This document shows positions 8,722 to 42,334 of a stretch of DNA of 64,000 nt, one piece after another. A program made the position numbers and the translations under genes. The DNA lies in the NCBI RefSeq assembly GCF_020252405.1, contig NZ_JADCDA010000018.1, positions 1 to 64,000 of the forward strand, given 5' to 3'. Positions within the stretch are counted from its first letter, which is position 1. Every line of letters starts with the position of its first letter. A model generated the notes under the pieces. It saw only the letters and a list, made by a program, of their open reading frames with translations. It did not search any database and was not told the DNA's origin. This DNA is from Aestuariivirga sp. Its GTDB lineage: Bacteria; Pseudomonadota; Alphaproteobacteria; Rhizobiales; Aestuariivirgaceae.

Positions 8722-9462
8722 ATGGCCGGAGCCCTCAGGCTCTGGCTCCTGCTGCTTGCAGTGCTCATCGGGGCGGCGCGGGCCGAGGCCACCTGCACCG
8801 CGGAAAGCTTCGAAGGCAATGACTATACCGTCTGCCGCTTCGACCTGCGGCAGGACCGCCTCCGGCTCTTCAGCCTCGACGACAACGGGGCGCCCTATGG
8901 TTCCTTCGCCAGCCTGCGGCTGTCGCTGGAGGCGAAAGGCGAGACGCTCGCCTTCGGCATGAACGCCGGCATGTATGGCGAGGACCTGAAGCCCATCGGC
9001 CTCTATATCGAGAACGGCAAGCTGCTGCGCAAGCTGAACCGCCGCGACGGCCCGGGCAACTTCCACATGAAGCCCAATGGCGTGTTCTTCATCGACGGAG
9101 ACACGGGCGGCGTGATGGAGACGGAGGCCTTCGCCGCGTCCGGAGTCAAGCCGCAATTCGCCAGCCAGTCCGGCCCCATGCTGGTGGTCGATGGCCAGAT
9201 CCACCCCAGGTTCTCGCCCGCGGGCACATCGCTTCAGCGCCGGAACGGCGTCGGCGCAGCCGACGGCCACACGCTGATCTTTGTCATCAGCGAGGACTGG
9301 GTGAACTTCCATTCCTTCGCCCGCCTGTTCAGGGACAGGCTCAACTGCCCCAACGCGCTCTTCCTCGATGGCTCGATCTCCAGCCTGCACGCCCCGGAGT
9401 TGGGGCGGAGTGACGGTTTTGCCCCGCTGGGGCCCATCGTGGCGCTGGTCAAAGGGTCCTGA
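8722..9462 (+). CDS. Secreted phosphodiester glycosidase-like (DUF2233/NAGPA) protein
   Basis: The 246-residue protein starts with a signal peptide (LWLLLLAVLIGAARAEA). The rest carries the DUF2233/NAGPA fold motifs: AFGMNAGMYGEDLKPIGLYIENGK, FHMKPNGVFF, SQSGPMLVVDGQIHP, RNGVGAADGHTLIFVISED, and the hallmark NALFLDGSISSLH near the C-terminus. Relatives include the mammalian uncovering enzyme and YigE. The substrate is not known; a phosphodiester-linked sugar in the envelope is an inference from the family. It follows the IalB-like gene directly and precedes rlmN. Confidence 0.85.
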   Translation: MAGALRLWLLLLAVLIGAARAEATCTAESFEGNDYTVCRFDLRQDRLRLFSLDDNGAPYGSFASLRLSLEAKGETLAFGMNAGMYGEDLKPIGLYIENGKLLRKLNRRDGPGNFHMKPNGVFFIDGDTGGVMETEAFAASGVKPQFASQSGPMLVVDGQIHPRFSPAGTSLQRRNGVGAADGHTLIFVISEDWVNFHSFARLFRDRLNCPNALFLDGSISSLHAPELGRSDGFAPLGPIVALVKGS

Positions 9463-9504
9463 AGCCCTCATTTCAGGGGATCTCTCGCATTTCCGCCCGG
9501 TTTC

Positions 9505-10707
9505 ATGCTATGGGCCCGGTTCATGACCACGCTGCTTTCAACCGTTGACGTCGCCCCGCGCTATATCCCCAATGATCCGCGCCCCTCGCTCATCGGGCTG
9601 ACGCGGCAAGGCCTTGCGGATGCCATGGGCCGCGCCGGCGTGCCGGAAAAGCAGCGCCGCATGCGGGCCGGCCAGGTGTGGCACTGGCTCTATCACCGCG
9701 GTGTGCAGTCCTTCGCCGGGATGACCAACATCGCCAGGGACCTGCGCCAGCGCCTCGACGGGGAATTCGTCATCGGCCGGCCGGAGATCGTCACCGAGCA
9801 GACCTCGACCGACGGCACGAAGAAGTGGCTCCTGCGTCTGGCCCCCGATGAGCGCGGCGCCCGCCACGAAGTCGAGATGGTCTATATCCCGGAGGAAGAC
9901 CGCGGCACGCTCTGCATCTCATCGCAGGTGGGCTGCACGCTCACCTGCGCCTTCTGCCACACCGGCACGCAGAAGCTCGTGCGCAACCTCACCGCGGGCG
10001 AGATCGTGGCGCAGGTGATGACGGCGCGCGACCGCGTGAAGGACTGGCCGCAGGACATCGAGGCCAACCCCGCCCCGCCGCTCGCCGGCCGCAACATCAC
10101 CAATGTCGTGCTCATGGGCATGGGCGAGCCGCTCTATAATTTCGACAACGTCAGGGACGCGATGGACATCGTCTCGGACGGCGAGGGCATTTCGCTGTCG
10201 AAACGGAGGATCACGCTCTCGACCTCCGGTGTCGTTCCGGAAATCGCGCGCGCCGGCGAAGAGATCGGAACCATGCTGGCGATCTCGCTCCATGCCACCA
10301 CCGACGAGGTCCGCGACAAGCTCGTGCCCTTGAACAGGAAGTATCCGATCAAGGACCTGCTCGCCGCCTGCCGCGCCTATCCCGGCCTTTCCAATGCGCG
10401 GCGCATCACCTTCGAATATGTGATGCTGAAGGGTGTGAACGATACACCTGCCGATGCCAGGCGCCTGGTGCAGCTCTTGAAGGGCATTCCCGCCAAGGTG
10501 AATTTGATCCCCTTCAACCCCTGGCCCGGCACGCAATACGAGTGCTCGGAGTGGGACACGATCGAGGTCTTCGCTGAAATTCTCAACCGTGCCGGCTATG
10601 CTTCCCCCGTCCGCACCCCGCGCGGCCGCGACATCATGGCCGCCTGCGGCCAGCTGAAGAGCGAGAGCCAGAAGCTGCGGGCCAAGGAACGCCTTGGCCT
10701 AAGTTAA
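9505..10707 (+). CDS. rlmN: 23S rRNA (A2503-C2)/tRNA (A37-C2) methyltransferase RlmN
   Basis: A radical-SAM enzyme of 400 residues that methylates C2 of A2503 in 23S rRNA and of A37 in some tRNAs. The [4Fe-4S] cluster motif CTLTCAFC places Cys at 144, 148 and 151. The acceptor cysteine is found in the C-terminal MAACGQL segment. Other family landmarks are [12 protein letters not shown] and [20 protein letters not shown] codons occur at 9505 and 9523; the second (MTTLLSTVD) may be the true start. Its last nine bases overlap the convergent fic gene, which marks the edge of inserted DNA between rlmN and argG. Confidence 0.96.
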
Positions 10708-11316
10708 CTCTTTGCCTGATGCCGAACTTATAACCGAGAGAAGCTGCTTGGCGAGCATGTTCATGAGCAACTCTTCCATCACATCCAAGTTCAACTGCTC
10801 ACCGTTTCTCCAAGCCTCATCGGCATCTTCCAGTGCAGCGAAGTAAGCCTTTCGATCTTTTTGGATCTGTTCGGGAATTGTTGGCACGCCAGGCAGCACG
10901 TATCCTGTCACTATAGAGAGCACTATGTAAGACAGAACTCTGCTGGTTCTCCCATTGCCGTCGGCAAATGGATGGATCCAGTTATGTCTCCACATCACGT
11001 ATGCAGCCAAATGAAACGCTGTTTGGACGTGAAGGTTGTCGTTCACATACTCGCACATTTCGGTCACCAATCCCTCAACGAGGTGTGCCGGGGGAGGCTG
11101 ATGAGCGCTTCCTTCTATCCTGACTGGAGTTCTTCGCCATTCCCCAGGATTAGACTGTATGCCTTGAACGGCAATCTTCTGCAGTTGGAGAATGAGCCCA
11201 GGACGCAATGCAAAGGGCCTGCCGGGTTCCAGATAGTAGCGAATGACCTCAGTGCCTTCTTCGAGTTGCCTGAACCCGTTTTCAGCTTCTCGTTTCGCTG
11301 CTTCTTCGTCGTTCAT
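10699..11316 (-). CDS. Fic-domain protein (AMPylator toxin candidate)
   Basis: A 205-residue protein from the ATG at 11316. The complete Fic active-site motif HPFADGNGR spans residues 115-123, with the catalytic His and the Arg and Asn needed to bind ATP, so it is predicted to transfer AMP (or another NMP) to a hydroxyl of a target protein. Upstream helices carry the typical [15 protein letters not shown] and [18 protein letters not shown] segments. No inhibitory motif is seen in the protein itself, consistent with a partner antitoxin. A GTG at 11340 would add eight residues but falls inside a terminator hairpin. Base composition is visibly less GC-rich than the neighbours, suggesting acquisition. 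The small gene upstream is the candidate antitoxin. Confidence 0.9.
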
Positions 11317-11328
11317 TCTCGGCCCAAC

Positions 11329-11356
11329 AAAAAAAGCCACACCCAGAGGGTGTGGC
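11329..11356 (-). terminator. Rho-independent terminator between the anti-Fic and fic genes
   Basis: Read on the minus strand, a perfect 9-bp stem (GCCACACCC pairing with GGGTGTGGC, three-base loop) is followed directly by seven T. This is a textbook intrinsic terminator. It lies between the stop of the 56-residue gene and the ATG of fic, so it should end most transcripts after the antitoxin. It is expected to reduce fic expression. The alternative fic GTG codon (11340) is inside the stem. Confidence 0.88.
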
Positions 11357-11382
11357 CTATCTACATATAGTTAAATCGCAAT

Positions 11383-11553
11383 TCAAGCGCGCATGGCATC
11401 CGCAATATCATCGACCATCTTCCTTGTGATCGCGGGATTCTCAAAAGCGGTGTTGCCGTATACAAAGCTGCGACGCTGCTCTTCTTGCTGCGCTTCCGTC
11501 ATTTTGACGGCCTTCGCCATCTCTATGAGTTTGGAAATACTGAGTTTTGTCAT
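11383..11553 (-). CDS. Small VbhA-like anti-Fic antitoxin candidate
   Basis: A 56-residue protein (MTKLSISKLIEMAKAVKM...) directly upstream of fic in the same direction. The second half reads RRSFVYGNTAFENPAITRKMV, with a helical, charged pattern like VbhA-type antitoxins. The inhibitory motif of that class is [S/T]xxxE[G/N]; here the nearest match is NTAFEN, which has Asn in place of Ser/Thr, so the assignment is tentative. The start is chosen at 11553 because AGAAGG lies a few bases upstream; a longer frame begins at 11619 with no good ribosome site. A terminator follows its stop. Confidence 0.7.
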   Translation of the reverse strand: MTKLSISKLIEMAKAVKMTEAQQEEQRRSFVYGNTAFENPAITRKMVDDIADAMRA

Positions 11554-11904
11554 CTGTCCTTCTCCGGCAACCGGCTCTTTTCCACTATTTGTTGTCCTAC
11601 CATCTAAAAGGGGTGTCAACCGTTAAGAAGATGTTAACTTTTTGCTTGTCCATCGAGAAATTCGCATTCCTCTTCGAAAGTTCCACCTCATCAGCCAGTT
11701 GGCGCCGGCCAAGGCGCATTTCGCCTTGCAATCGGACGCCGGCTTCGATGCAACCGGTGTGGGTTTGCCTGGATGATCTCCTCCCACTGTGGAGAAGGAT
11801 TATCGAACCCATTTTCCGGCATGCACCGCCTATCAGCCCTCCAGTTGCGGCCAGCGCATCTGACGTGATAGGTGGCGCACAGCCAATTCCAATGGGTGCG
11901 CTCC
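11554..11904. other. Intergenic region before argG, no convincing gene
   Basis: This 351-bp stretch separates the anti-Fic gene and argG. It holds a perfect CtrA-type site at 11623-11638, followed by T-rich sequence. A minus-strand 71-codon frame at 11691-11906 (many Trp and Arg, no ribosome site) looks like chance. Composition is less GC-rich up to about 11,700, so the right edge of the inserted Fic DNA may lie here. Confidence 0.6.
11623..11638 (+). promoter_or_regulatory. Candidate CtrA-binding site
   Basis: The sequence TTAA-GAAGATG-TTAAC is a perfect match to the alphaproteobacterial CtrA consensus TTAA-N7-TTAAC. It lies 70 bp upstream of the anti-Fic start (minus strand) and 267 bp upstream of argG. 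A perfect match is rare by chance in GC-rich DNA. Binding is inferred. Confidence 0.55.
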
Positions 11905-13125
11905 ATGTCCAGGCAGAAAGTGAAGAAAGTGGTGCTCGCCTATTCCGGCGGCCTCGACACCTCGATCATCCTCAGGTGGCTGCAGACGGAATATGGGGCC
12001 GAGGTCGTGACGTTCACCGCCGATCTGGGCCAGGGCGGCGAGCTTGAGCCCGCCCGCGAGAAGGCCCTGATGCTGGGCATCAAGGACATCTATATCGAAG
12101 ACCTGCGCGAGGAATTCGTCAGGGACTTCGTCTTCCCCATGTTCCGCGCCAATGCCGTCTATGAGGGCGTCTACCTGCTCGGCACGTCGATTGCCCGCCC
12201 GCTCATCGCCAAGCGCCTGATCGAAATCGCGCAGGAGACGGGCGCCGACGCCATCGCCCACGGCGCCACCGGCAAGGGCAATGACCAGGTGCGCTTCGAA
12301 CTCACGGCTTACGCGCTGAACCCGGACATCAAGGTCATCGCCCCCTGGCGCGAATGGAATTTCAGGAGCCGCACCGACCTGATCGACTTCGCCGAAACCC
12401 ACCAGATCCCCGTCGCCAGGGACAAGCGCGGCGATGCGCCCTTCTCGGTCGACGCCAACCTGCTGCACTCCTCCTCCGAGGGCAAGGTGCTGGAAGACCC
12501 GTGGGTGGAGCCGCCGCCTTATGTCTACCAGCGCACCATCGCGCCGGAGGATGCGCCCGACAGGGCAACCACCATCGAAATCGAATTCCTCAAGGGAGAC
12601 CCCGTCGCGATCGACGGCAAGAAGATGCCGCCCGCCGCGATCCTCGCCGAACTCAACCGTCTGGGCCATGACAATGGCATCGGCAGGCTCGATCTCGTCG
12701 AGAACCGCTTCGTCGGCATGAAGTCGCGCGGCGTCTATGAAACGCCCGGGGGCACGATTCTGCTCGCCGCGCACCGCGCCATCGAGTCGATCACGCTCGA
12801 CCGCGAGGCGGCACACCTGAAGGACAGCTTCATTCCGAAATATGCCGAGCTTGTTTATTACGGTTTCTGGTTCTCGCCGGAGCGCGAGATGCTGCAGGCG
12901 GCAATCGACAGGAGCCAGGAGCATGTCGAGGGCACGGTGCGCTTGAAGCTCTACAAGGGCAACGTCATCGTCACCGGCCGCAGGAGCCCGAAGTCGCTCT
13001 ACAGCGACGCCCTCGTCACCTTCGAGGATGACCGCGGCGCCTATGACCAGAAGGACGCCGCCGGCTTCATCCGCCTCAACGCGCTCAGACTCCGCACGCT
13101 GGCGGCAAGGAAGCGCAACACCTGA
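11905..13125 (+). CDS. argG: Argininosuccinate synthase
   Basis: This 406-residue enzyme joins citrulline and aspartate using ATP, the penultimate step of arginine synthesis. The N-type ATP pyrophosphatase P-loop AYSGGLDTS is at residues 12-20. Other family landmarks follow: [24 protein letters not shown] and [11 protein letters not shown]. The length is normal for the family. The ATG at 11905 gives the canonical short N-terminus ([16 protein letters not shown]); an upstream ATG at 11872 adds residues not expected in the family. It is followed 14 bp later by the ribokinase gene, probably in one transcript. Confidence 0.97.
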
Positions 13126-13139
13126 ACAGGGAGGTCGTT

Positions 13140-14054
13140 ATGACCATCGCCGTTGTCGGCAGCATCAACATGGACGTGACGGCCTACATGTATCGCCTGC
13201 CGAAGCCGGGCGAAACGCTGCACGGCAAGGACTATATCGTGGGCCTTGGCGGCAAGGGCGCCAATCAGGCGGTGGCGGCAACGAAGCTCGGCAGCGATGT
13301 GGCCTTCATCGGCCGCATCGGGGCCGATGATTTCGGCAAGAGCGCGGAACGCGCGCTGAAATACTACGGCCTCGATCTCTCGCTCATCGCCAAGGACCAT
13401 GACGGCGCCACCGGCATCGCCATCATCAATGTCGGCGAGGGCGGGGAAAACTACATCTCCGTCATCGCAGGCAGCAACTTCCACGTCGATGTCAGCGATG
13501 TCGAAATGGGCCGCGCCGCGCTGGAACAGGCGAAGGTCCTGCTTCTCCAGCTCGAAGTGCCGCTCGAAGCCTCGCTCGCCGCCGCGGCCATCGTGCGGGC
13601 GCACGGCGGCACGGTGATCCTCGATCCCGCGCCGGCGAAGGACCTCGACCCCTCGGTGCTCCGGGCCATCGACATCATCACCCCCAATGAAGCCGAGGCG
13701 GGCCAGCTGCTCGGCTGGCAGCCGCGGACGCCCGAAGAGGGCCTTAGGGCCGCGAAGGAACTCCGCGCGCGCGGCGTCGCCACCGCCGTCGTCAAGCTCG
13801 GCGGCAAGGGCCTCGCCGTCGCTGGCGAGGGCATCGAGAAGACCCTCCCCGCCTTCAAGGTGACGCCCATCGACACGGTCGCGGCGGGCGACAGCTTCAA
13901 CGGCGGCCTCGCGCACGCGCTCGAACAGGGGCAGGGAATCGAGATGGCGCTGCGCTACGCCGCCGCCTGCGGGGCGCTGTCCACCACCCGGATGGGCGCC
14001 GCCGAGGCTGCACCGACAAGCGCCGAGGTCGAAGCCTTCCTGTCGCGGGCTTAA
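13140..14054 (+). CDS. rbsK: Ribokinase
   Basis: A 304-residue PfkB-family sugar kinase that phosphorylates ribose at O5. The N-terminal VVGSINMDVTAYMYRLPKPGETL and GGKGANQAVAATKLG are classic ribokinase substrate-binding segments. The C-terminal DTVAAGDSFNGGLAHAL holds the catalytic Asp and anion hole (AAGD for the usual GAGD). ITPNEAEAGQLLG is also present. GGAGG precedes the ATG. It is 14 bp downstream of argG, and its 3' end overlaps the convergent channel gene by 4 bp. No ribose transporter is adjacent here, but an RbsC-type permease ends the window. Confidence 0.92.
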   Translation: MTIAVVGSINMDVTAYMYRLPKPGETLHGKDYIVGLGGKGANQAVAATKLGSDVAFIGRIGADDFGKSAERALKYYGLDLSLIAKDHDGATGIAIINVGEGGENYISVIAGSNFHVDVSDVEMGRAALEQAKVLLLQLEVPLEASLAAAAIVRAHGGTVILDPAPAKDLDPSVLRAIDIITPNEAEAGQLLGWQPRTPEEGLRAAKELRARGVATAVVKLGGKGLAVAGEGIEKTLPAFKVTPIDTVAAGDSFNGGLAHALEQGQGIEMALRYAAACGALSTTRMGAAEAAPTSAEVEAFLSRA

Positions 14055-20456: not shown

Positions 20457-20555
20457 TAAAGCATTTTCGGGTCAAGTGGACACCGGTTGACCGTCGAAAA
20501 TGCCACCGGACAAAGAGACAGAGCAGGTTTCGGTTCCACTGTACCGAAACCTGCT
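20457..20555. repeat. C-D type palindromic element, copy 1
   Basis: A 99-bp element made of two palindromes: C (GCATTTTCG... with GGTCAA/TTGACC inner arms ...CGAAAATGC) and D (AGCAGGTTTCGGT pairing with ACCGAAACCTGCT). The spacer is ACAAAGAGACAG. A second copy of exactly the same length is at 42208-42306. This copy ends one base before the stop codon of the convergent gene. Confidence 0.8.
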
Positions 20556-42207: not shown

Positions 42208-42306
42208 TAAAGCATTTTCAGGTCAAGTGGACACCGGTTGACCGTCGAAAATACGGCCAAACAAAGAGATAGAGCAGGTTTCGAGCCCACTGAACCGAAA
42301 CCTGCT
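42208..42306. repeat. C-D type palindromic element, copy 2
   Basis: A 99-bp copy nearly identical to that at 20457-20555. C: AAAGCATTTTCAGGTCAAG...TTGACCGTCGAAAAT; D: AGCAGGTTTCG...CGAAACCTGCT. It lies between the end of rppH and the start of the 59-residue gene. Confidence 0.8.
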
Positions 42307-42334
42307 CTGGAAGGCGTCGGCCTTCAGGGCAACC

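Follow-up and report, generated by a model that had tools for sequence, protein, structure and literature searches.

A terminator-like hairpin between a small antitoxin-like gene and fic recurs with unrelated sequences and is a candidate attenuator of toxin dosage

How an excess of antitoxin is maintained is a central question for toxin-antitoxin (TA) operons, and type II modules usually answer it by autorepression, translational coupling or differential translation. The locus described here raises the question whether a terminator between the two genes could serve the same end. It lies within a 64-kb window, by which we mean the whole stretch of DNA that was analyzed (64,000 nucleotides), and consists of a hairpin and T-tract that separate an antitoxin-like gene (11553-11383) from fic (11316-10699), all on the minus strand (Table 1). 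The original prediction placed a perfect 9-bp stem followed by seven T between these genes and described it as an attenuation device for toxin dosage; we found that the coordinates of this structure and its strand are exact.

Table 1. Features of the antitoxin-fic locus in the window
Feature	Position	Strand	Basis or remark
Antitoxin-like gene, 56 aa (MTKLSISKLIEMAK...QRRSFVYGNTAFENPAIT...)	11383..11553	(-)	Intact ORF; homologue just upstream of fic in 74/74 distinct loci
Antitoxin-gene Shine-Dalgarno, good (GGAGAAGGA)	11557..11565	(-)	Duplex energy -6.6 kcal/mol
TTGACA hexamer, candidate -35 element upstream of antitoxin	11614..11619	(-)	Sequence; no good -10 found
Terminator hairpin	11334..11358	(-)	Perfect 9-bp core 11336-11356, 3-nt loop, 11 pairs including flanks
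T-tract	11329..11335	(-)	Seven T on the coding strand, immediately 3' of stem
In-frame GTG	11338..11340	(-)	Within hairpin 3' arm; probably unused as fic start
fic, 205 aa from ATG at 11316	10699..11316	(-)	PF02661, E 4e-18

The two arms of the stem (11336-11344 and 11348-11356) are 9 nt each and 100% complementary across the 3-nt loop. Intrinsic terminators have a G+C-rich stem of about 5-14 bp, a short loop and a U-tract right after the stem; the core, with its 11 pairs including flanks, has the former properties, and the seven T provide the latter. Among the terminator-like matches listed for the window (25 of 26), this hairpin alone combines a stem of at least 9 pairs with six T in the next seven bases, and it is, among those matches, the most canonical intrinsic terminator of the window. 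When a 101-nt stretch was folded, it gave a z score of -2.85, with an equally good fold in 1 of 200 shuffles. The window contains no Rfam match. The hairpin is single-copy in the genome, allowing up to 2 mismatches, which rules out an origin from a repeat family.

Our data indicate that the small gene and fic form a conserved module, since a homologue of the small gene lies upstream of fic at every locus that we surveyed. We infer that the two proteins are an antitoxin and its toxin. The HPFx(D/E)GNGRxxR motif of the Fic protein is intact, and the window shares with class I FicTA modules (VbhTA, EcFicTA/YhfG-Fic and Fic-1-AntF) a small gene that immediately precedes a Fic gene with this motif. 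The 56-aa protein had no match in Pfam, NCBIfam or PDB, profile comparison gave no match to VbhA or EcFicA, and a fold search with its low-confidence three-helix model was also without a match. Pfam and NCBIfam hold no model for the family found upstream of fic in the 74 loci, and plasmid records annotate its members as hypothetical proteins. Eight residues of the small protein (Q26, R27, S29, F30, G33, E38, N39 and T43) are invariant within the window's clade. The window protein contains NxxxEN, whose E and N are invariant among its relatives and whose first position is mostly N, with S in loci L004 and L020. The resulting [N/S]xxxEN of the window-clade proteins resembles the inhibition motif of class I FicA antitoxins, [S/T]xxxE[G/N] (PMC5033356). 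Antitoxins of a second clade (alignment A4, with L005, L050, L066 and others) share S-F-x-Y/F-G-N, but the Glu conserved in the class I inhibition motif is missing from them; they may therefore inhibit Fic differently.

Loci for comparison were gathered by Fic similarity alone, with the hairpin ignored, from whole genomes, GTDB contigs, IMG/VR and plasmids. This survey comprises 74 distinct antitoxin-fic loci, some of which come from metagenome bins or from viral contigs; L002 and L044 have an interrupted fic frame. We found a terminator-like hairpin on the fic strand of the gap in 12 of the 74 loci. L068 and L071 additionally carry a strong hairpin with a weak T-tract, and 60 loci have no clear hairpin. 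Dinucleotide shuffles of the same gaps yielded 0.5 terminator-like hairpins on average and never more than 2, compared to the 12 observed, and control segments taken from the antitoxin and fic coding sequences yielded 0-1. The antisense strand of the gaps gave 6 matches at the loose setting, since stems with flanking A and T qualify in either direction. At a strict setting (at least 9 bp, 5 GC pairs and T4) we found hairpins in 8 loci (L001, which is the window's own, L007, L044, L050, L052, L066, L101 and L102); here both the antisense strand and the shuffles gave 0. Of 64 further co-directional gaps no longer than 120 nt, from the same loci and the window, none contained a terminator-like hairpin; this control set was built with a crude ORF caller and is unmatched for gene function. 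Since related loci are not independent, the associated Fisher p = 4e-4 serves as a guide only. The possibility that the hairpin is a chance or functionless remnant fits the fact that most relatives manage without one, but recurrence is far above expectation and none of 5000 dinucleotide shuffles of the window gap produced a stem of at least 9 bp with T4, so we regard it as most improbable.

The sequences of the recurring hairpins are unlike each other, even among the nearest relatives. L052 is the closest relative found (64% Fic identity) and has a hairpin in its gap, with arms AAAGGCCGCGTC/GACGCGGCCTTT; those of the window are GGCCACACCC/GGGTGTGGC, and those of L007 are GGGTGGTCAC/GTGGCCACCC. 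Loci with a hairpin fall in four subclades of the Fic tree. Placing this label on the tree, a quick one with many open forks, takes 9 changes, and well-supported branches force at least 5 of them. Judged from these sequences, the position of the hairpin is kept or regained and its sequence turns over, as expected if selection acts on the presence of a terminator and not on its exact sequence. The device is optional, because a clear hairpin is missing from most relatives, L006 and L024 of the window's own subclade among them. Throughout most of the large sister group of clade A, the fic start coincides with the antitoxin stop codon or precedes it, and in most other relatives the two genes abut or overlap. 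The window's genome contains a second, distant antitoxin-fic pair (L002; G000 contig C40, 51005-53630) with 38% Fic identity; a strong hairpin unlike that of the window occupies its gap, and an internal stop breaks its fic frame.

We found that the T-tract lies too close to the toxin start for a promoter to fit in between. The fic ATG lies 12 nt from the T-tract in the window, and in other loci this distance is typically 0-16 nt, falling to 0-3 nt in L066, L044, L050 and L005. This suggests that fic is probably made by read-through. Transcription from a promoter placed before the hairpin would also meet the terminator on its way to fic, and a scan of 9000-14000, which covers alphaproteobacterial promoters poorly, found no full sigma-70-like promoter. 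These observations bear on a separate-transcript arrangement, in which the terminator merely ends an antitoxin transcript and fic is transcribed from a promoter of its own. A strong canonical terminator does normally mark the end of a transcription unit, but the short distances and the scan argue against this arrangement, which we consider unlikely.

Instead, the hairpin and T-tract probably form a partial intrinsic terminator and serve as an attenuator within a two-gene FicTA operon. This is the best-supported model because there is no promoter room, no sigma-70-like site was found and the Shine-Dalgarno sequence of the fic ATG is poor (duplex energy -2.4 kcal/mol versus -6.6 for the antitoxin gene). 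Transcription would start upstream of the antitoxin gene, from one promoter. Most RNA polymerase would stop at the T-tract past the antitoxin gene, and a minority would read through into fic, so that antitoxin mRNA would exceed toxin mRNA; the weak fic ribosome site near the hairpin would lower toxin output further. We infer both the efficiency of termination and the read-through into fic. Against the attenuator model, a terminator this strong could halt almost every transcript and so all but silence fic. A further alternative is that the hairpin is an RNA-processing or stabilizing element that guards the 3' end of the antitoxin mRNA after cleavage. Such hairpins can alter how stable the two parts of an operon mRNA are relative to each other, yet the T-tract and the strand bias match termination better, and we find this role very unlikely.

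The original prediction also pointed to a GTG that could extend fic and is buried in the stem. This codon is indeed in frame with fic (11340-11338) and inside the 3' arm of the hairpin. It is probably not the fic start, because L052 aligns at the downstream ATG without a conserved N-terminal extension; the alignment backs the ATG at 11316 (N-terminal MDANEIARLE, 10 residues), and the Shine-Dalgarno sequence of the GTG is poor. The attenuation proposal thus finds support in the recurrence of unrelated terminators in the gap and in the short distance to the toxin start; its alternative start is not supported.

A translational role for the hairpin is nevertheless possible. The fic start adjoins the hairpin in many loci, and in L007 the sole possible fic start sits in the hairpin loop, with its Shine-Dalgarno sequence in the stem. 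The hairpin could thus act mainly on translation, by keeping ribosomes from the fic start of a full-length mRNA. Such a block does not need a T-tract, yet the hairpins found at the strict setting carry T4 or more and all lie on the sense strand, and the window ATG is 19 nt beyond the stem. We therefore hold a mainly translational function to be quite improbable. Translation could also enter through the antitoxin gene. At seven loci, the stem begins no more than 6 nt from the antitoxin stop codon or overlaps it, and coupling to the terminating ribosome is conceivable there; it is less so in the window, where the stem begins 24 nt past the stop codon. We tentatively put forward, as a broader and rather doubtful hypothesis, that FicTA modules have repeatedly and independently acquired attenuators like those of type III systems and that, in about half of the cases (stem within 6 nt of the stop), the ribosome ending the antitoxin could mask the hairpin, allow polymerase to enter the toxin gene and so couple toxin transcription to antitoxin translation.

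Attenuation by a terminator between the genes is textbook knowledge for type III toxin-antitoxin systems. In these, a Rho-independent terminator between antitoxin and toxin modulates the toxin level, a feature that has been called unique to type III (review PMC5086642). The window locus matches the position of this terminator in ToxIN, AbiQ and TenpIN. In contrast, type III antitoxins are tandem-repeat RNAs and type III toxins are endoribonucleases (ToxN-like), whereas the window encodes a conserved protein and Fic. We found no tandem repeat in 11200-11900. The window locus is not type III, because it has no RNA repeats and its toxin is Fic; it appears to combine a type III-like dosage control with a build like that of class I FicTA modules. 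Among type II pairs of E. coli, yhfG shares 11 nt with fic, which leaves EcFicTA no room for a terminator where the window has a gap, and the two genes overlap by 1 nt in mazEF, hipBA and relBE. We found no report of a terminator between the genes of FicTA or other type II modules; with subscription literature mostly outside the scope of the search, this is weak evidence of novelty. In axe-txe, a type II module of Enterococcus, a terminator-like attenuator is involved, and extra transcriptional layers tune the toxin-to-antitoxin ratio (PMC3760812). In axe-txe the terminator-like hairpin follows the toxin gene and an internal promoter is located within the antitoxin gene, whereas the window hairpin lies between the genes. 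The recurrence of unrelated terminators suggests that bacteria repeatedly use a device that keeps toxin scarcer than antitoxin. If this is true for FicTA, and if the device was gained repeatedly, a terminator between the genes would be a general solution and not an oddity of type III systems.

The antitoxin-fic cassette is located between rlmN and argG. In a relative from the same genus (L134, RlmN 90% identical) rlmN and argG are adjacent, with a short gap, no fic and no hairpin, and by this comparison the module looks like an insertion. A resident terminator of rlmN or argG is ruled out as the source of the hairpin, since the rlmN-argG junction of L134 contains neither the cassette nor the hairpin. 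On the other side of the cassette, fic and rlmN converge and their ends overlap by 9 nt (10699-10707); our scan found no terminator-like site 3' of fic. Upstream of argG, a 14-nt inverted repeat (TGCACCGCCTATCA / TGATAGGTGGCGCA) spans 11822-11879, and its right arm is partly kept in L134; this repeat is possibly an argG leader structure. Elsewhere in the window, two nearly identical long palindromes (GCAGGTTTCGGTNCAGTGG...CGAAACCTGC) are located at 20523-20554 and 42272-42307 and possibly represent a dispersed palindromic repeat.
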